Shown: positions 7,903 to 35,462 of the stretch, in pieces
Layout: each line of letters opens with the position of its first letter
Position numbering within the stretch: the stretch's first letter is position 1
The notes under the pieces: generated by a model
What the model was told of the DNA's origin: nothing
The model's database searches: none
What the model saw: only the letters and a program-made list of their open reading frames with translations
Translations under genes and position numbers: made by a program
Assembly: GCA_030424715.1 (NCBI GenBank)
Contig: JAUHWH010000001.1
Location: 62,001 to 126,000 of the forward strand
Direction: 5' to 3'
Source of the DNA: Bdellovibrionia bacterium
GTDB taxonomy: Bacteria; Bdellovibrionota; Bdellovibrionia; Bdellovibrionales; JAGQZY01
DNA length: 64,000 nt

Positions 7903-8879
7903 GGTCGCTTCTCCCCTTCGGACTCTTTGTTGGTATTGTATTTCGTCTTGGCTTTTTTGACAACGATGCGGTCACCACCCTGAGAGACAATAATCTCATC
8001 CCCTACGAGCTGGTCATCGGCCTCCACCACTTTGGGATTATCCCTAAAAATATACTTGTCCTCTTGAAAAAACACCTCAGCCTCGCCAGCCACACCCCAG
8101 CGACCGATATCCTTAATTTTGACACCGCCGTCGATAAACATGGAGTGCAGATCATTGTTTTTATAGATAAATTTCGCCCGTGGCCCTGTGATGGTCATAG
8201 AGTCGACATCGATAATCACATCTTTTTTAAACAACACAAAATTACTCGCCCCACTAAACACGGCCTCCCGACTTTGAATCTTCATCTGCCGGCCACCACT
8301 CATGCTTTTGCGACCTCTGACATTACTTTTAAGATTGATAATATTTGTTGTTAGGTTGGCGTCAAAATAATCCGCACGCATATGCAAGGGGCCACCATCG
8401 CCGTTTTGATCGGGAGGGCCCACAAGAGTGACCTCCTCAGGTCCATCAATGGTGCGGGTGTCGGTTTTATAGTACAGCACTTCGGTGTTAAGAGTGTAGC
8501 CGTTGTTTGAGGTGATTTCAGTGTCGCCGGAGATCTTGAGCTTTTTTTGCAGCTCCCCGACAAAGCCCTCTTTACCAACGGCGTTATAGATGACTTGGTT
8601 TTCTCCGAAGAACTTCACCTTTACGGCCGTTAAGCCCCAATCATCACTTTGCTTCTTTTTACGAGCCTCTTGGGCGTCGAGCTCCCAAAGCTTTTTCTCA
8701 CCCTTAGACTCAACCAGGTGACTGCCAGAGAGAACCTGCTCAATGTCTTTCTCGTCTTCGATTTCGCTTTCCGCCACCCAGTCTTTCTCGACTTCACGGT
8801 CGCCGGCTTGCGGCGCAAAAAACACCAACTCAACGACGATCAAAGCAAAAACAAATGTGGCCAGTAGCCATTTCCACAT
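7899..8879 (-). CDS. lptC: LptC-family LPS transport protein with OstA/LptA-like C-terminal half
   Basis: A 326-residue bitopic protein with one TM near residues 3-22 and the remainder periplasmic. Residues about 50-180 resemble LptC (WELDAQEARKKKQSDDWGLT, then VKVKFF). The C-terminal part repeats the OstA/LptA-type strands (REAVFSGASNFVLFKKDVII, TITGPRAKFIYKNNDLHSMF). LptC is usually about 190 residues and a separate LptA about 180, so this length suggests one protein covering both roles or an extended bridge segment. No separate lptA is seen here. It overlaps lptB by 4 bp. Confidence 0.85.
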   Translation of the reverse strand: MWKWLLATFVFALIVVELVFFAPQAGDREVEKDWVAESEIEDEKDIEQVLSGSHLVESKGEKKLWELDAQEARKKKQSDDWGLTAVKVKFFGENQVIYNAVGKEGFVGELQKKLKISGDTEITSNNGYTLNTEVLYYKTDTRTIDGPEEVTLVGPPDQNGDGGPLHMRADYFDANLTTNIINLKSNVRGRKSMSGGRQMKIQSREAVFSGASNFVLFKKDVIIDVDSMTITGPRAKFIYKNNDLHSMFIDGGVKIKDIGRWGVAGEAEVFFQEDKYIFRDNPKVVEADDQLVGDEIIVSQGGDRIVVKKAKTKYNTNKESEGEKRP

Positions 8880-9824: not shown

Positions 9825-10979
9825 CTATTTCGCGGCTTTGAGAAGTAGGGATACCATTACCACTGTTCCAGAGGGACCAGTCTTTTTAATCAGAATATCG
9901 CCCCCCCATTCATTTAGGTCCTTTTTCGCAAGGAATAGGCCCAACCCATTGCCACCTTTTTTGGAAGACACTAGGATTTTCTGCCCAACCTCTGCAAGAA
10001 TAGAATCAGGAAACCCCGATCCATTGTCAGAAATCTCCAAGAAGACCCTTGATTCATCTTTAAATGCAGAAAGATCCAGGAGAAGAACATCTCCTTCTGT
10101 TGACTCAAATGCATTATCTATCAAGTTAGACAAGGTTCTCTTGAACTTGTTTTCGTGCCCAAGTACATTGCAAACATTATTATCAAATCTGATAGAGCAA
10201 TTGATAGCTGCGGCATCTCGATACAACGAGCTTTTTTCCGAAATGACTTCTGAAATCGCATCTACCAAGTTGAAAGAAACATTTTTAAAACTGTCTATAT
10301 CCAGGGTTCCATCCAGTATTGTGCGTGAAATCTCTGACAGTCGAATAGTTGCTTTATCGAGGTAGTCCTTTAACCGATCTTCATTAAGCTCTAGATTAGA
10401 CGAGCCGATCAGGCGTAGCATGCCGATGGGGGAGGTCAGGTCGTGGGCTATGGCTCTCATGTTGAGAGCTAGCTCCCTCTCCCTCTCCGCAGCAAGTGAT
10501 AAGCGCTTGTCGACAAAATGGAAAAAGAAAAAGATAGCTCCCGCAGCAATAAATCTTACGAACCAAAGTATAAGGGAGAATTCAAACTGGGTGGGAACGA
10601 CATATTGAAATACCCATGAGTTCCCGTCTTTGCTTACCAATGATCCCGAATATGGAATCCCAAATAGAAAAAATGGAGTCGGCAAACAGTCCTCTTCTAT
10701 AGCTGACTTGTAGACGACAAACGCCCGCTCTATCCCAACAACCTCCAACGTGACACACTTTAACAACCCGCCTTTTTCAAGGTTTCGAACAAGAACTGAT
10801 GCATTCTGAAAATCAGAGTCATACAGCCCGGCATCAAGAGACTCATTCAAAATCTTTGCTACTCTATTGCCATGCGACTTCAAAACCACATAAAAGACAC
10901 CTTGCACTCCCAGAAAAATCCCTGCCGAAATGAAAAGACGGATCACCCACTTGTTAAAAAATGATAATCCTTTTCTCAC
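9825..10979 (-). CDS. Membrane sensor histidine kinase
   Basis: A 384-residue kinase. TM1 lies at about residues 12-32, followed by an extracytoplasmic region of about 100 residues without a recognised domain, TM2 at about 135-155, the DHp helix with H-box AIAHDLTSPIG (His 179), N-box NLIDNAFES, G1 DNGSGFP and G2 GNGLGLFLAKK. The chosen GTG overlaps the stop of the YcaO-like gene as GTGA; a longer version would overlap by about 60 nt. No response regulator is adjacent. Linkage to the peptide-binding-like and YcaO-like genes suggests sensing of a peptide or of the YcaO product, which is inference. Confidence 0.85.
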   Translation of the reverse strand: MRKGLSFFNKWVIRLFISAGIFLGVQGVFYVVLKSHGNRVAKILNESLDAGLYDSDFQNASVLVRNLEKGGLLKCVTLEVVGIERAFVVYKSAIEEDCLPTPFFLFGIPYSGSLVSKDGNSWVFQYVVPTQFEFSLILWFVRFIAAGAIFFFFHFVDKRLSLAAERERELALNMRAIAHDLTSPIGMLRLIGSSNLELNEDRLKDYLDKATIRLSEISRTILDGTLDIDSFKNVSFNLVDAISEVISEKSSLYRDAAAINCSIRFDNNVCNVLGHENKFKRTLSNLIDNAFESTEGDVLLLDLSAFKDESRVFLEISDNGSGFPDSILAEVGQKILVSSKKGGNGLGLFLAKKDLNEWGGDILIKKTGPSGTVVMVSLLLKAAK

Positions 10980-11821
10980 AACTTTACCTGCAGCTCGTCG
11001 TTTTTGAATTGAAACCCTTGAACAAAAGACCGACATAAAATGAGCCCCATGAAAGACTCTACTTCTTGCCAGGAAATCTTTGGCAAGAAAATCTCGCCGA
11101 TAGTTGGAACATCGTTTTTTAACAAGGCATCCACCTGATCGCCATTCTCCGAAATATCAGAGAGGACGGAGTGATGAGAATTTATTTGAAGGTTATAGGG
11201 GTAATTATTCATATTCTGCAAAATAAAGAGATTTCTCCTAGCCTCAATAAAAGAGTGTGCTAGGGCTTCTGATAGACTATCTCTCACGGCCGATCCTGTG
11301 ACAAAATGAGTTCCAATACGACAAGTTACGATACCAAAAAAAACTTCCTCCAGTGCGCCCGAAAAATTGCAATAGTTAACTTTCACCACGTAGGCACCAT
11401 TATGCTCGGAAAATGCTGCGTAAATGCCTAGATCGTAATCCAGCAAGTCCACAGAACAAACCGAGCACCTACCCTCCGCAACTAACAACTTTACGTACCT
11501 TTCAACGGCCTCAGCATTCGATCTACGAATAGTTTCATTTAAGCCAAAACCAGCAGCCATACAGTCGGTTGAGTTGATAAAATCAAACCTAAATTTACTC
11601 GTACCACTAAACTTTTCAAAAAAAATTCTCTCTACCGCTTCAGAACAGGCTTTATTAACGGAGATCTGCTTTTCAACATCAGTTCCTGACGACATTATTT
11701 TTGATTTTCTAAAAAGTAGAGTAGTATTAAATATATTATATGGAGCAGTTGCAAATTCAAGTACCTGCTCATACACAACAGGTAGTTCTCCAAAGCATTC
11801 AAACACCTTAATTTTTGTCAT
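10976..11821 (-). CDS. Divergent YcaO-domain protein
   Basis: A 281-residue cytoplasmic protein with the three ATP-binding signatures of YcaO enzymes in order: NKACSEAVER (56-65), STDCMAAGFG followed by NAEAVER (84-108), and SLSEALAHSFIEARR (182-196). YcaO proteins use ATP to activate peptide backbone amides, forming azolines, thioamides or amidines in RiPPs. The usual final Gln/Arg pattern is changed (EARR), and the C-terminal PxPxP tail of cyclodehydratases is absent. No partner E1-like protein or obvious precursor peptide is nearby. It overlaps the upstream peptide-binding-like gene by 14 bp. The fold assignment is by motif only; the reaction is unknown. Confidence 0.7.
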   Translation of the reverse strand: MTKIKVFECFGELPVVYEQVLEFATAPYNIFNTTLLFRKSKIMSSGTDVEKQISVNKACSEAVERIFFEKFSGTSKFRFDFINSTDCMAAGFGLNETIRRSNAEAVERYVKLLVAEGRCSVCSVDLLDYDLGIYAAFSEHNGAYVVKVNYCNFSGALEEVFFGIVTCRIGTHFVTGSAVRDSLSEALAHSFIEARRNLFILQNMNNYPYNLQINSHHSVLSDISENGDQVDALLKNDVPTIGEIFLPKISWQEVESFMGLILCRSFVQGFQFKNDELQVKL

Positions 11822-13382
11822 CGACTCTTATAAACTCTGGAGCGGGATAAAGAGCCGAGCTCGATACGGACTCAATGTCTATACTTTTCGAATACATAAA
11901 TGATATGGATCGATGAGAAATCGGCATCAACAGCCCTCCAGAAATGATAATATCGTGTAGCTTGGTTCTTTGATCACCAGTCAAAGGCCCCTTATGATTT
12001 TTTAAGTTGCGGGACACAAAACTGCAAACTCGCCCCTTGTAATCCGAGTACCTAACACCTAGTTCCGAGCAGAAAATCATATCGAGTAGCGAAAAATACG
12101 GGATCGAGCCAAGGTTTACTGATGTAATCCTAATATCAAAAGGCTTGATATTGTCTTGACTGATCGGGGTGTGCCTTTCTTTGTCGTACAACTGTATTTC
12201 AAAATTCATTTTTTCGGCTATTAGTTTGAATATCTCCAGCAATTTTTCTCTGCGGGCATCCGGTAAAACCGTAGAAATTGAAACAATAGCCTTCTGCTTT
12301 TTTTTAAAAGACCAGGGTTCAATTTTATTATTCCTGTAATACTCTTTAAAGTAGTCGACCTGATCGAGAGGAAAAAAACTATTGGCAGAGACCGAAGAGG
12401 CATCTGAGTACCTAAATTTCTGTTTCAAATTATACAACAGAAAGAAAAAATATTTCCGAGCATCGGCAGATTGGAAAATTGACTTATTCCATATTGGAAG
12501 TGAAACGTTGACAGTAAAAGTAGGCGTTCCTCGAATAACCCGCACATCATCCCGCTCTGGTAACCTCTCATTAAGCTGCGCCACAAAGTGCCCCCCTGGC
12601 GTGCCAATCTGATCAATCGAAGGTACGATTTTAAACTTAACTTTTTTGAAGTCTGGCTCTGGCGCATTGGAACCATTCCTATATACTAGAACAATCTCTT
12701 CATCTGATATTACGTCAAGAACCTTATAGGTGCCGCTAGACACGACACTCCGCTCGCTTGCCCAAGAAACTCGGTCGTCCTTAAAATTCCCTTCACAGAG
12801 GTAGCCAAAATACGGATCCGACAATCGTTCAAAAAGGTGTTCTGGGCGCTGTCTAAACTTAAAAATCAATTGATTACCCTTGAAAGAAATCCCACTAATT
12901 GAAGACGAACTTTTTTCTTTCAGCTTTTCTGCCTCGAGTAGTTTTTCGAATTCAAGCAATCGCCCTTGCTCAGCATATTTCCGCAATGACCCCGTCAGGA
13001 TCCCCGCATAAGACTCGGCCGTGATTCTCTCGCCAGATTCACAGGTTAAATTGTCTCGGAGAGTAAAAACCCAGGTCAACTTATCTAATGATGTATTTAG
13101 GCTTTTCGCCAAGTGTAAATTAAACTTTCCAACATTATCTGCTCGGACCAGTGTGCCAATAAGATTGGTCATCAGAACGTGGTTTCTAAAGTAGTCACTT
13201 TTTAAAATATTGAACGAAAACGGTTTCTTTTGATGGAGAAAATAGGTCAGCTCGGCATTAGCAGTGGCTCTATCTTCTTTGGTTCCCGCCGTTCCAGAGG
13301 TTAGCTGAGGCCAAAATCTCAACATTAGAAGGAATGAAAATAGACTCACAATCAGACAGATCAACCACCACGTCGTTTTCAC
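11808..13382 (-). CDS. Membrane-anchored SBP_bac_5-like (oligopeptide-binding) protein
   Basis: A 524-residue protein beginning with a hydrophobic anchor (WWLICLIVSLFSFLLML) and no lipobox. It then shows family 5 periplasmic binding-protein features: LIGTLVRADN, HLAKSLNTSLDKLTWVFTLRDNLTCE (the typical YTFHLR-like segment), and TAESYAGILTG matching the ADDV..S region. The C-terminal third is divergent. SBP_bac_5 proteins bind peptides, usually for ABC importers, but no permease or ATPase gene is here, so it may sense or deliver a peptide. The GTG at 13382 is chosen because SD AAGGGG lies 6 nt before it. It overlaps the upstream gene by 113 nt. Confidence 0.75.
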   Translation of the reverse strand: MKTTWWLICLIVSLFSFLLMLRFWPQLTSGTAGTKEDRATANAELTYFLHQKKPFSFNILKSDYFRNHVLMTNLIGTLVRADNVGKFNLHLAKSLNTSLDKLTWVFTLRDNLTCESGERITAESYAGILTGSLRKYAEQGRLLEFEKLLEAEKLKEKSSSSISGISFKGNQLIFKFRQRPEHLFERLSDPYFGYLCEGNFKDDRVSWASERSVVSSGTYKVLDVISDEEIVLVYRNGSNAPEPDFKKVKFKIVPSIDQIGTPGGHFVAQLNERLPERDDVRVIRGTPTFTVNVSLPIWNKSIFQSADARKYFFFLLYNLKQKFRYSDASSVSANSFFPLDQVDYFKEYYRNNKIEPWSFKKKQKAIVSISTVLPDARREKLLEIFKLIAEKMNFEIQLYDKERHTPISQDNIKPFDIRITSVNLGSIPYFSLLDMIFCSELGVRYSDYKGRVCSFVSRNLKNHKGPLTGDQRTKLHDIIISGGLLMPISHRSISFMYSKSIDIESVSSSALYPAPEFIRVDDKN

Positions 13383-13614
13383 TAACAACCCCTTCACTCA
13401 CTAAATGTACACACTCGTTCGAATCTAGGAAAGAATAGTAACTTTTTTCATCAGTGAACTGAAGCAACATACGCTCATCGTTGCCACTAATTTTCCCCAC
13501 TCCATCAATGGTTTCACCAAGGTCTCCAGGAAGCACCTCAGGCCCTCGGTGCCCCAAGGCGACATGTGGCAATATTAGAGGGATTAACAAGAAGAGTTTG
13601 TTTAAAAAAAGCAT
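13270..13614 (-). CDS. Small exported protein, unknown
   Basis: A 114-residue protein with a clear signal peptide (LNKLFLLIPLILPHVALG) and a mature part of about 93 residues with two Cys (NECVHLV and LSDCESI) that could pair. SD GGAGG is 5 nt from the ATG, and a plausible promoter lies at 13656-13684. Its last 37 codons overlap the peptide-binding-like gene in another frame. It is probably the first gene of the block running to 9825. I recognise no family. A signal peptide makes it an unlikely YcaO substrate. Confidence 0.65.
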   Translation of the reverse strand: MLFLNKLFLLIPLILPHVALGHRGPEVLPGDLGETIDGVGKISGNDERMLLQFTDEKSYYSFLDSNECVHLVSEGVVSENDVVVDLSDCESIFIPSNVEILASANLWNGGNQRR

Positions 13615-13797: not shown

Positions 13798-14364
13798 CTA
13801 CCGATTTTCGGACGGCAGGGTGACTTCAACATAAGAAGGCATTTCACAACGAAACTGGCGGACATTACCGGCACCAATATCGGTGTGTCCCTCATACATG
13901 AATGAGGCATCAAGATCGTTAGTGATCATAGTGAACAGCAAGTCGTCGTCCTTCCCTTCAGTCCCATGGCCATGGCGAAAAGCATAAGATAAGTGGTAGC
14001 GACCGATCTGCCCTTCTTTTTCCATATAAGGTGTCGTATTTCTAATTATACTATCGACAGCGTCTTTTGTAAGGTGTTTCGAAGAATCTTTTTGATAATA
14101 TTTAAATGAAGCATCAAGGATGGGAGTTTCCTCATAGTTGGATTTCTTAATGAACTCTTTGCCCTGCATGTGTTTTACATCGGAACCATCATTGTACGAG
14201 GTACTCGTCTGCTGGATAACCAAGATCATTATTGATCCTGGCTCAGGGTTGATTTCTTGACAGATGATTTGTGCGCGAGTTTCTTTGTCAGAGGATTCTC
14301 CCGCGAGCGCCAGAAAGCCCGCTGCTAAAGACAAGATAGTCACTAAAAGGTTCATCAAATACAT
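13798..14364 (-). CDS. Exported protein, tandem paralogue 2
   Basis: A 188-residue protein with signal peptide LLVTILSLAAGFLALA and two conserved Cys (QIICQEINPEPG near the N terminus and RQFRCEMPSY near the C terminus) that probably form a disulfide. It is a close paralogue of the next gene upstream: long stretches such as DGSDVKHMQGKEFIKKSNY and IGAGNVRQFRCEMPSYVEV are nearly identical in both. SD AAGGA is 9 nt from the first ATG; a second ATG 9 nt in matches the paralogue's start. No family recognised. The tandem copy implies a fairly recent duplication. Confidence 0.75.
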   Translation of the reverse strand: MYLMNLLVTILSLAAGFLALAGESSDKETRAQIICQEINPEPGSIMILVIQQTSTSYNDGSDVKHMQGKEFIKKSNYEETPILDASFKYYQKDSSKHLTKDAVDSIIRNTTPYMEKEGQIGRYHLSYAFRHGHGTEGKDDDLLFTMITNDLDASFMYEGHTDIGAGNVRQFRCEMPSYVEVTLPSENR

Positions 14365-14465
14365 ACTTTTTTATCCTTTAATAGTTTTATGGGAGTTAGC
14401 TGTTATAAGATATCCGGTTGGCAGCTGTGCGAGGCAGGTATGCCTCACAGAGCCATCGATAAAGA

Positions 14466-15053
14466 TTAGTACTCAGCGGAAGTGTACTCTTCGCCATCTA
14501 CGGCTTCGGTTGGCAGGGTCACTTCAACATAAGAAGGCATTTCACAACGAAACTGGCGGATATTACCAGCACCGATTTCGGTGTGTCCTTCACGCATGAA
14601 TACGCCCTCGAGGTCAGTGGTAGCAAACTGAAGACGTAAATCATCGCTCTTGTCTTGAGTCCCTTCGCCGTAACGGAAACCATAGGTCAGGTTGTAACGA
14701 CCGATTTGCCCAACTTTTTCCATATAGGGAGTCGAGTTTCTAATTATTTTATCAACAGCATCTTTCTCTAGATATTCCGAAGAATCCTTTTGGAAATATT
14801 TAACTGAAGCATCAAGAATGGGTGTTTTTTTGTAGTTTGATTTCTTAACGAACTCTTTACCCTGCATGTGTTTCACTTCACTGCCGTCGTTGTACAAGGT
14901 GCTCGTCTGCTGAATAAGCATAATCATTATTGGTCCCGGCTCAGGGTTGATTTCTTGACAGACGATCTCCGCTCGAGTTTCTTTTCCCGATGATGATACT
15001 GCTAAAGCTTGAAAACTCACTACTAAGGATAAAATGCTCACCAAAATATTCAT
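14466..15053 (-). CDS. Exported protein, tandem paralogue 1
   Basis: A 195-residue paralogue of the gene at 13798-14364, with signal peptide LVSILSLVVSFQALA and the same two Cys. Differences cluster in the segment after GRYNLTYGFRYGEGTQ and at the C terminus, which carries an extra acidic and Tyr-rich tail (EAVDGEEYTSAEY). The 101-bp spacer between the copies has its own SD for the second gene. Function unknown. It faces the divergent gene at 15326 across a 272-bp gap containing inverted repeats. A surface or periplasmic role follows only from the signal peptide. Confidence 0.75.
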   Translation of the reverse strand: MNILVSILSLVVSFQALAVSSSGKETRAEIVCQEINPEPGPIMIMLIQQTSTLYNDGSEVKHMQGKEFVKKSNYKKTPILDASVKYFQKDSSEYLEKDAVDKIIRNSTPYMEKVGQIGRYNLTYGFRYGEGTQDKSDDLRLQFATTDLEGVFMREGHTEIGAGNIRQFRCEMPSYVEVTLPTEAVDGEEYTSAEY

Positions 15054-34007: not shown

Positions 34008-34129
34008 TGGAACTCCTCAATTAGAACCCACTTCTACAGTATTTTTTCTGGAAAATAATCCGAAAACTTGGAATTCGGACATATTTTCAGGCTTGAGCGC
34101 TCATATATCGGATTTCACCCCCTCTGTAG

Positions 34130-34145
34130 TGGCACGAACATTGAA
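34130..34145 (+). promoter_or_regulatory. Near-match sigma-54 promoter ahead of the FHA activator
   Basis: TGGCAC-N5-TTGAA, against the consensus TGGCAC-N5-TTGCA/T. The -24 GG is perfect and the spacing is exact, but the -12 GC reads GA. It lies 30 nt before the ATG at 34176, which fits autogenous control of a sigma-54 activator. The changed -12 base would weaken it. Confidence 0.4.
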
Positions 34146-34175
34146 AAATGTTTCTACAACAAACTTGGAGGACCC

Positions 34176-35462
34176 ATGGAAACACGAAGAGTAACCACCC
34201 CCGGAAGGGAAAAAATAAATCAGGCCTACTTGCTGCCGATCAACCAAAGCACCCAAGAGTCGTACGAGGTGGGTGAATTTTTGACAATTGGCCGCGATGC
34301 CAACAACACCATCCGCATTGATGACCCTTTCGTTTCAAGTCGCCATCTGCGCATTGAAAAGCGCACCCGAGGCTTTTTACTGCGAGATATGCAAAGTCGA
34401 AACGGGAGCTACGTAAACGGAACCGGGGTCATCGAAGCCTACCTTGAAAACAACGACAAGGTGATGGTCGGAGAAAGTCTTTTTGTCTTCTCAAACCTGA
34501 AACATCAACAGTCTCCATTGAAAAGTGACAACGAGCAGTGGAACCTACAGTTACAACGGCTCCCCGCCATTGCCAACACGGACTACACGGTTTTAGTGAT
34601 CGGTCCCTCGGGCACAGGCAAAGAAATCGTCTCCCATTGGATCCATAAAAACTCAAACCGACGGCAGGCCCCCTACATCACCATAAACTGCAGTGCACTG
34701 AGCGAAAGCCTGATCGAAAGTGAGCTCTTCGGACATGTGCGAGGCGCTTTTACCGGAGCCACGGAAGATCGCAAAGGAGCTTTTGAGGCCGCACGTGGAG
34801 GCACACTATTTCTGGACGAAATAGGAGATCTCCCACTATCACTGCAACCTAAATTACTACGGGCCCTTGAAAATAAAGAGATTCGCCCCGTCGGCAGTGA
34901 TCGCAGTGTTCAAACCAATGTTCGCATTATCGCTGCCACTCACAAGAACCTTAAACAAAAGGTCATCAAAAATGAGTTTCGAGAGGACCTCTACCATCGC
35001 CTTAACATCTGCCGAGTGACTCCGCCTTCGCTACTGAACCGCATGGAGGACTTCGAAAGTCTGCTCTATAACTTTGCACGAGATCAAAAGGTTGGATTTT
35101 CTTATCGAGCGATTGAGAAGTTAAAAAACCATACCTGGCCTGGCAACATTCGCGAACTGAAGAACGTAATTATTCGGGCCGCCGCCTACTTTCCCGGTAA
35201 GCGCATTCAAGAGGAGGACCTCCCTCAGCTTTTAGAGGCTGAGACCGATCACTCGTCTGACGGCTATCTCCCCGATGAGGACGCCGATCTTCCACCGCTC
35301 AAGGAGATCGAGCGCAACCTTATTCTGTCAAAGCTTCAGAAGTACTATGGCAATCAAAGAAAGGTGGCAGAAGAACTCAAGATGCCCAAAAGCACCTTGC
35401 ATGACAAACTCAAAACCTACCGGATTGACCCCACCCATTTTAAGAAACGCGGGAAGGTGTAA
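34176..35462 (+). CDS. FHA-domain sigma-54-dependent transcriptional activator
   Basis: A 428-residue bacterial enhancer-binding protein. An FHA domain at about 33-105 (LTIGRDANNTIRI, SSRHLRIE, RNGSYVNG) takes the place of a response-regulator receiver, so the input is a phosphothreonine partner. The AAA+ domain has Walker A GPSGTGKE (143-150), GAFTGA (190-195), which contacts RpoN, and Walker B LFLDEIGD. A Fis-type HTH (GNQRKVAEELKMPKSTLHDK) ends the protein. The ATG at 34176 has SD GGAGG. A longer upstream frame is not supported. It is convergent with the FliL-like gene, with no bases between the stops. Confidence 0.92.
   Translation: METRRVTTPGREKINQAYLLPINQSTQESYEVGEFLTIGRDANNTIRIDDPFVSSRHLRIEKRTRGFLLRDMQSRNGSYVNGTGVIEAYLENNDKVMVGESLFVFSNLKHQQSPLKSDNEQWNLQLQRLPAIANTDYTVLVIGPSGTGKEIVSHWIHKNSNRRQAPYITINCSALSESLIESELFGHVRGAFTGATEDRKGAFEAARGGTLFLDEIGDLPLSLQPKLLRALENKEIRPVGSDRSVQTNVRIIAATHKNLKQKVIKNEFREDLYHRLNICRVTPPSLLNRMEDFESLLYNFARDQKVGFSYRAIEKLKNHTWPGNIRELKNVIIRAAAYFPGKRIQEEDLPQLLEAETDHSSDGYLPDEDADLPPLKEIERNLILSKLQKYYGNQRKVAEELKMPKSTLHDKLKTYRIDPTHFKKRGKV

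Follow-up and report, generated by a model that had tools for sequence, protein, structure and literature searches.

Four overlapping genes on the minus strand of a genome fragment from a Bdellovibrionia bacterium (assembly GCA_030424715.1, contig JAUHWH010000001.1, positions 62,001 to 126,000) probably make up a widespread and previously unnoticed signalling cassette, with which Bdellovibrio-type bacteria make, modify and sense a small peptide. In the following, this 64,000-nucleotide stretch is called the window. The genes encode a small exported protein, a solute-binding protein (SBP), a small YcaO-domain protein and a sensor histidine kinase. On balance, we favour the view that this locus is one instance of a signalling cassette that occurs across the phylum and in which a two-part receptor is coupled to a maturase of the kind that acts on ribosomally synthesized and post-translationally modified peptides (RiPPs). 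A sequence-only reading of this DNA had placed four overlapping minus-strand genes here, and in the window sequence all four open reading frames (ORFs) lie where it had put them, with overlaps of 128, 14 and 61 nt along the series from the small gene through the SBP and YcaO genes to the kinase gene. The features, in window coordinates, are:

13270..13614, minus strand: small Sec-type exported protein, 114 amino acids (aa); ORF with an N-terminal hydrophobic signal; candidate RiPP precursor or signal
13273..13305, minus strand: C-terminal tail of the small protein (NLWNGGNQRR region), within the overlap with the SBP gene; candidate variable core, putative for the window
11808..13397, minus strand: SBP_bac_5 (OppA/PrgZ-like) protein, 529 aa; PF00496, E 1.9e-10; candidate ligand receptor
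10976..11821, minus strand: small YcaO-domain protein, 281 aa; fold match, ATP/Mg residues, and relatives above the PF02624 cut-off; candidate peptide maturase
11627..11641, minus strand: YcaO motif 1, E61-x-x-E64-R65; 98% conserved, n = 44 sequences
11498..11512, minus strand: YcaO motif 2, E104-x-x-E107-R108; 100% conserved, n = 44 sequences
11243..11245, minus strand: YcaO motif 3 glutamate, E193; 100% conserved, n = 44 sequences
9825..11036, minus strand: sensor histidine kinase with two transmembrane (TM) segments, 403 aa; PF02518 HATPase_c, E 5.7e-16; candidate signal transducer

The 281-aa YcaO protein

The 281-aa protein belongs to the YcaO superfamily, and its ATP site is intact. With PF02624 it scored 19.7 bits, which is below the curated cut-off of 25.7, and the same profile run over the whole window genome missed it. 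Exact-pattern searches for close relatives found none, and phmmer with the single window protein against the PDB returned chance matches only. The PF02624 genome search and the pattern searches came back empty because the family is too divergent. Homologues were obtained by protein and profile searches of related genomes, and 12 of the 13 relatives scanned match PF02624, with a best value of 3.8e-11, while the YcaO of locus L140 reached 77.8 bits. When the family profile was compared to the PDB, the sole sequence match, a weak one, was E. coli YcaO (4q84). An AlphaFold (AF2) model was built from seven sequences (mean predicted local distance difference test score, pLDDT, 65; predicted template modelling score, pTM, 0.69), and its top Foldseek matches were M. 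kandleri YcaO (6ci7/6cib; E 6e-5, probability 1.00) and, again, E. coli 4q84.

The sequence-only reading had recognised a YcaO domain with three ATP-binding signatures, and the alignment bears this out. Among 44 YcaO sequences, with identities down to ~20%, residues G46, E61, E64, R65, E104, E107, R108 and E193 were 98-100% conserved, and G176 was conserved in 91%. In known YcaOs, these residues match the positions that bind ATP and Mg. Within a clade of near relatives, the ratio of nonsynonymous to synonymous substitutions (dN/dS) of the YcaO gene was ~0.1-0.16, indicating that the protein is a working enzyme. One relative (L003:4250-5083), from a genome that is 57% complete, contains a single in-frame TAA and is either a pseudogene or an assembly error.

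It had also been noted that the protein lacks a PxPxP tail and an E1-like partner, and both observations hold: the PxPxP C-terminus is absent from the C-terminal tails of the window YcaO and its aligned relatives, many of which terminate instead in conserved residues such as W..G...RF[LV]Y, and no E1-like/ocin-ThiF partner occurs among the ORFs of the window cassette. Stand-alone YcaOs (bottromycin, M. kandleri/M. jannaschii, E. coli 4q84) have the same fold and the same ATP/Mg-binding glutamates and arginines, but the cassette YcaOs are divergent, mostly ~265-330 aa long and in fixed linkage with an SBP and a kinase, without the PxPxP tail and without a recognised E1-like or TfuA partner. The nearest published slot is that of the 'non-TOMM' YcaOs of unknown substrate (TOMM, thiazole/oxazole-modified microcin) noted by Cox et al. 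2015 (PMC4603692). Literature searches on YcaO combined with signalling, SBP or Bdellovibrionota, and on Bdellovibrio RiPPs, found no paper that describes the cassette; subscription papers lay outside these searches, and the absence is no proof.

The cassette across the phylum and its exchangeable maturases

The phylum was searched with a profile made from four YcaO relatives, the first relatives being from five genomes of the same order, including the window's own. The profile matched in 94 of 369 phylum genomes at E <= 0.01. We picked 44 loci by the YcaO match alone and inspected the neighbours afterwards. This survey of homologues, which had been proposed together with the sequence-only reading, showed that the neighbourhood is kept, since an SBP gene adjoins the YcaO gene in 40 of the 44 loci and a histidine kinase gene does so in 40 as well. 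The usual arrangement is SBP - YcaO - kinase on one strand, with the kinase gene divergent in some loci. Among the deviating loci, two (L061 and L078) are cut off by contig ends and two (L066 and L088) have the look of decayed copies. Because the same gene order recurs phylum-wide, the gene set in the window is not a chance arrangement. A scan of 84,980 species genomes, carried out with two peptide patterns only, gave six loci, all from metagenome-assembled genomes named Oligoflexia, Bdellovibrionales, Pseudobdellovibrionaceae or Bacteriovoracaceae. The cassette is present in the complete, single-contig genomes G011, G091 and G049, the latter with two copies, and one genome, G059, contains six YcaO matches.

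Plasmid searches with two YcaOs gave no match. There are at least 11 YcaO cassettes within ~6 kb of type IV secretion proteins, and this proximity suggests that some cassette copies regulate conjugative elements. VirB2/VirB3/VirB4-like genes adjoin the cassettes L011, L068, L076, L082, L083, L086, L090, L092, L147, L149 and L186, which are probably part of integrative conjugative elements. The window cassette has no type IV secretion neighbour.

Searches that started from the SBP rather than from YcaO revealed sister cassettes with other maturases. In L134, the order is response regulator - radical S-adenosylmethionine (SAM)/SPASM enzyme (PF04055 5.9e-20) - small exported protein - SBP - kinase, and a search with this radical SAM enzyme led to 16 further loci (L190-L205; 17 with L134), most of which have the same five genes, with a small protein of 95-118 aa in the same place. 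The tails of the small proteins in these 17 loci are rich in Ser, Gly and Ala (e.g. ..TASGGAISIGGTQ). Another arrangement, response regulator - major facilitator superfamily (MFS) protein - SBP - kinase - DUF4135, was found in L132, L133, L137, L138, L151, L159 and L174. DUF4135 is the LanM dehydratase domain (PF13575 8.8e-19), and the LanM-like dehydratases of these cassettes are short, stand-alone proteins of ~330-370 aa. All seven loci contain an ORF of 24-32 aa between the kinase and DUF4135 genes; its leader is acidic, its end is rich in Ser and Gly (e.g. MEIVYIDLEALEAEAESHNAGLSSAG), and in six of the loci a clear Shine-Dalgarno sequence precedes it. Judged by their sequence, these ORFs have the form of a lanthipeptide-type precursor, and the MFS-SBP-kinase-DUF4135 cassettes appear to be a second RiPP signalling type. 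In L133, the precursor-like peptide region is found at 8220-8314. The small exported ORFs that our detector (see below) reported upstream in the LanM-like loci lie in the C-terminus of the MFS gene and were not counted as support.

In RiPP pathways, YcaO, radical SAM and LanM-like enzymes all have ribosomal precursor peptides as substrates, and for this reason a RiPP role is the simplest reading of the YcaO version as well. Two YcaO cassettes, L140 and L091, additionally encode a SagB-family peptide dehydrogenase (TIGR03605 4.9e-17 and 6.3e-28, respectively). A 302-aa gene of L140 was considered as a TfuA and rejected, as it gave a weak acetyltransferase match only. A YcaO protein is common to the cassettes and to the clusters for linear azol(in)e-containing peptides (LAP)/TOMMs (SagBCD), and two cassettes also share SagB with them; however, the cassettes lack a SagC-like partner, their constant genes are the SBP and the receptor kinase, and no SagB-type dehydrogenase is present in the window cassette. 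In the single-contig genome G049, a gene for a SagB-like dehydrogenase (L206:7104-8102; phmmer 1e-7) is divergent from a complete small gene-SBP-YcaO-kinase cassette. At L130:3498-4619, a papain-family protease gene (PF00112 2e-9) sits at the YcaO position behind an SBP gene, and the kinase gene is divergent.

The small exported protein and the candidate receptor pair

In most cassettes, a 47-171-aa ORF with a Sec-type signal peptide is located directly upstream of the SBP gene and often overlaps its start. These ORFs were scored with a crude automatic detector, which gave a background of 61/312 before other large ORFs. A small exported ORF preceded the SBP gene in 43 of 56 YcaO cassettes and in the one radical SAM cassette scored (1/1), and in none of 27 maturase-less SBP-kinase pairs (Fisher p 2.4e-12 for YcaO cassettes versus maturase-less pairs, uncorrected for kinship). 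Owing to this tight linkage to maturase-bearing cassettes, the small exported protein is probably the precursor or ligand. The sequence-only reading had listed this protein and yet stated that no precursor peptide was apparent, which the linkage does not support and which is probably wrong. The body of the small protein is conserved within clades, its C-terminal tail varies strongly even there and is hypervariable between cassettes, and the dN/dS of ~0.15-0.33 in a close clade indicates purifying selection where it can be measured. The small protein of the window has no Pfam match and aligns weakly to those of L094-L096. Directly upstream of the window cassette, the region 13798-15053 encodes a tandem pair of paralogous exported proteins of 188 and 195 aa, also without a Pfam match.

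The SBP profile matches structures of the oligopeptide binders OppA and MppA and of the enterococcal pheromone binder PrgZ, and an N-terminal TM segment, an uncleaved membrane anchor, is kept in nearly all relatives. The SBP had been described as lacking transporter partners, and indeed, when the ORF sequences were read, no Opp/Dpp permease or transport ATPase gene was seen beside the window SBP or in the SBP-YcaO-kinase neighbourhoods. The kinases carry two TM segments, and their periplasmic domain is short; in the window's group it contains a conserved Cys pair when sensor domains are compared by eye. The window kinase has an HD..SP phosphorylation box, and H198, N304, N308, D337 and G339/341 are invariant. 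NtrC-type response regulators are encoded in or next to many cassettes, often leading them. Widespread SBP-kinase-response regulator triplets without a maturase or small exported gene (L155-L176) probably sense external ligands.

A possible signalling route and its alternatives

From this gene content, we infer that YcaO modifies the small protein, and that the SBP binds it and the SBP-kinase pair senses it. The small protein would be the precursor, the backbone of which would be modified by YcaO in the cytoplasm using ATP, probably in the variable C-terminal tail, after which the product would leave via Sec. In the periplasm, the product or a fragment of it would be bound by the membrane-anchored OppA/PrgZ-like SBP, and the ligand-bound SBP may dock on the kinase at its short sensor domain, by analogy with LuxP and LuxQ. 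The kinase would then phosphorylate a response regulator of the sigma-54 type, the gene for which lies in another part of the window genome. The output may be autoinduction or quorum control, with neighbouring conjugation genes as possible targets in some relatives. The suggestion in the sequence-only reading of a peptide-sensing or peptide-modifying signalling unit is supported by comparison, as the cassette is conserved across the phylum and its YcaO slot is taken in sister cassettes by other RiPP maturases (radical SAM/SPASM, LanM-like, or YcaO together with SagB). It also withstood the two checks named beforehand as able to refute it, since fold and profile searches put the protein within YcaO and the homologues retain the gene neighbourhood.

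Parts of this route have parallels. Streptococcal Shp-Rgg systems with radical SAM RiPPs (RaS-RiPPs) likewise bring small peptides and a radical SAM maturase together with cell signalling at a single locus, but there the signal peptide stays unmodified and reaches a cytoplasmic regulator by import, whereas the cassette has an SBP, a membrane kinase and a small protein with Sec-type export. In nisin-type autoinduction (NisA-NisBC-NisRK), a RiPP product is sensed by a co-encoded sensor kinase, as we propose here, but without an SBP co-receptor and with other maturase sets, and no antimicrobial genes were seen in the cassettes. Periplasmic binding proteins work together with histidine kinases in LuxP-LuxQ and other SBP-kinase pairs, and PrgZ is of the same SBP family; the cassette receptor differs in that it is a membrane-anchored SBP_bac_5 protein co-encoded with a peptide maturase.

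Several points weigh against the proposed route. The association statistics ignore relatedness, the maturase-less pairs mostly look like one clade, and the detector missed a small exported ORF in 13 of the 56 YcaO cassettes. With 47-171 aa, the small protein is larger than typical RiPP precursors and it is hypervariable, and in L010 its signal peptide is out of frame. To our knowledge, a Sec-exported YcaO substrate would be unusual, and a RiPP signal that acts between cells would, in a Gram-negative bacterium, have to pass the outer membrane as well. The aspartate with which OppA binds the peptide N-terminus aligns with a Gly in the cassette SBP, in what is a weak alignment. Finally, no response regulator gene adjoins the window cassette, the nearest NtrC-type gene being at 34068-35462.

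In an alternative reading, the SBP and kinase respond to peptides from outside, for instance from prey; the target of YcaO is a partner in the cytoplasm (the kinase, for example, or some other cell protein); and the small protein only assists the SBP in the periplasm. YcaO is able to act on folded proteins, as established for methyl-CoM reductase, the E. coli and methanogen YcaOs act on large proteins, and the maturase-less SBP-kinase-response regulator units presumably sense external ligands. We nevertheless consider this alternative unlikely, as the small exported gene tracks maturase-bearing cassettes and not SBP-kinase pairs alone, YcaO is replaced by radical SAM and LanM-like enzymes, which usually act on small precursor peptides, and the LanM versions carry a typical 26-aa precursor. 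The maturases, being RiPP enzymes, could also belong to an antimicrobial or predation cluster that produces a toxin or bacteriocin, with the SBP and kinase regulating production or self-sensing; kinase autoinduction of lantibiotics is known and the host bacteria are predators or scavengers. This seems quite improbable, given that no immunity gene, dedicated exporter or peptidase was seen in the YcaO and radical SAM versions, and that the receptor genes are the most constant part of the cassette and the maturase is the variable part. YcaO might also have no biosynthetic task and instead trim or gate the signal of the kinase as an ATP-dependent regulator or peptidase. Its very small size, the missing PxPxP tail and partner protein, and the overlap with the kinase gene might suggest this, but it is very improbable in view of the protein's interchangeability with radical SAM/SPASM and LanM-like maturases and its pairing with SagB dehydrogenases in L140 and L091.

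Returning to the peptide signalling cassette, we tentatively propose, at somewhat less than even confidence, that RiPP pheromones constitute a new class of cell-cell signalling in the Bdellovibrionota, with interchangeable maturases (YcaO, radical SAM, LanM-like), export by Sec or MFS proteins, an SBP-kinase readout, and control of conjugative elements by some copies. The cassette may thus be a new chemical language of Bdellovibrio-type bacteria. If this is true, YcaO would gain a signalling role besides its roles in antibiotics and in the modification of the ribosome and methyl-CoM reductase, and the combination of a single receptor pair with three unrelated types of maturase would form a natural experiment in the recognition of modified peptides. 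The predatory or scavenging Bdellovibrionota would gain a peptide language with many private dialects, as the six YcaO copies in a single genome may illustrate.

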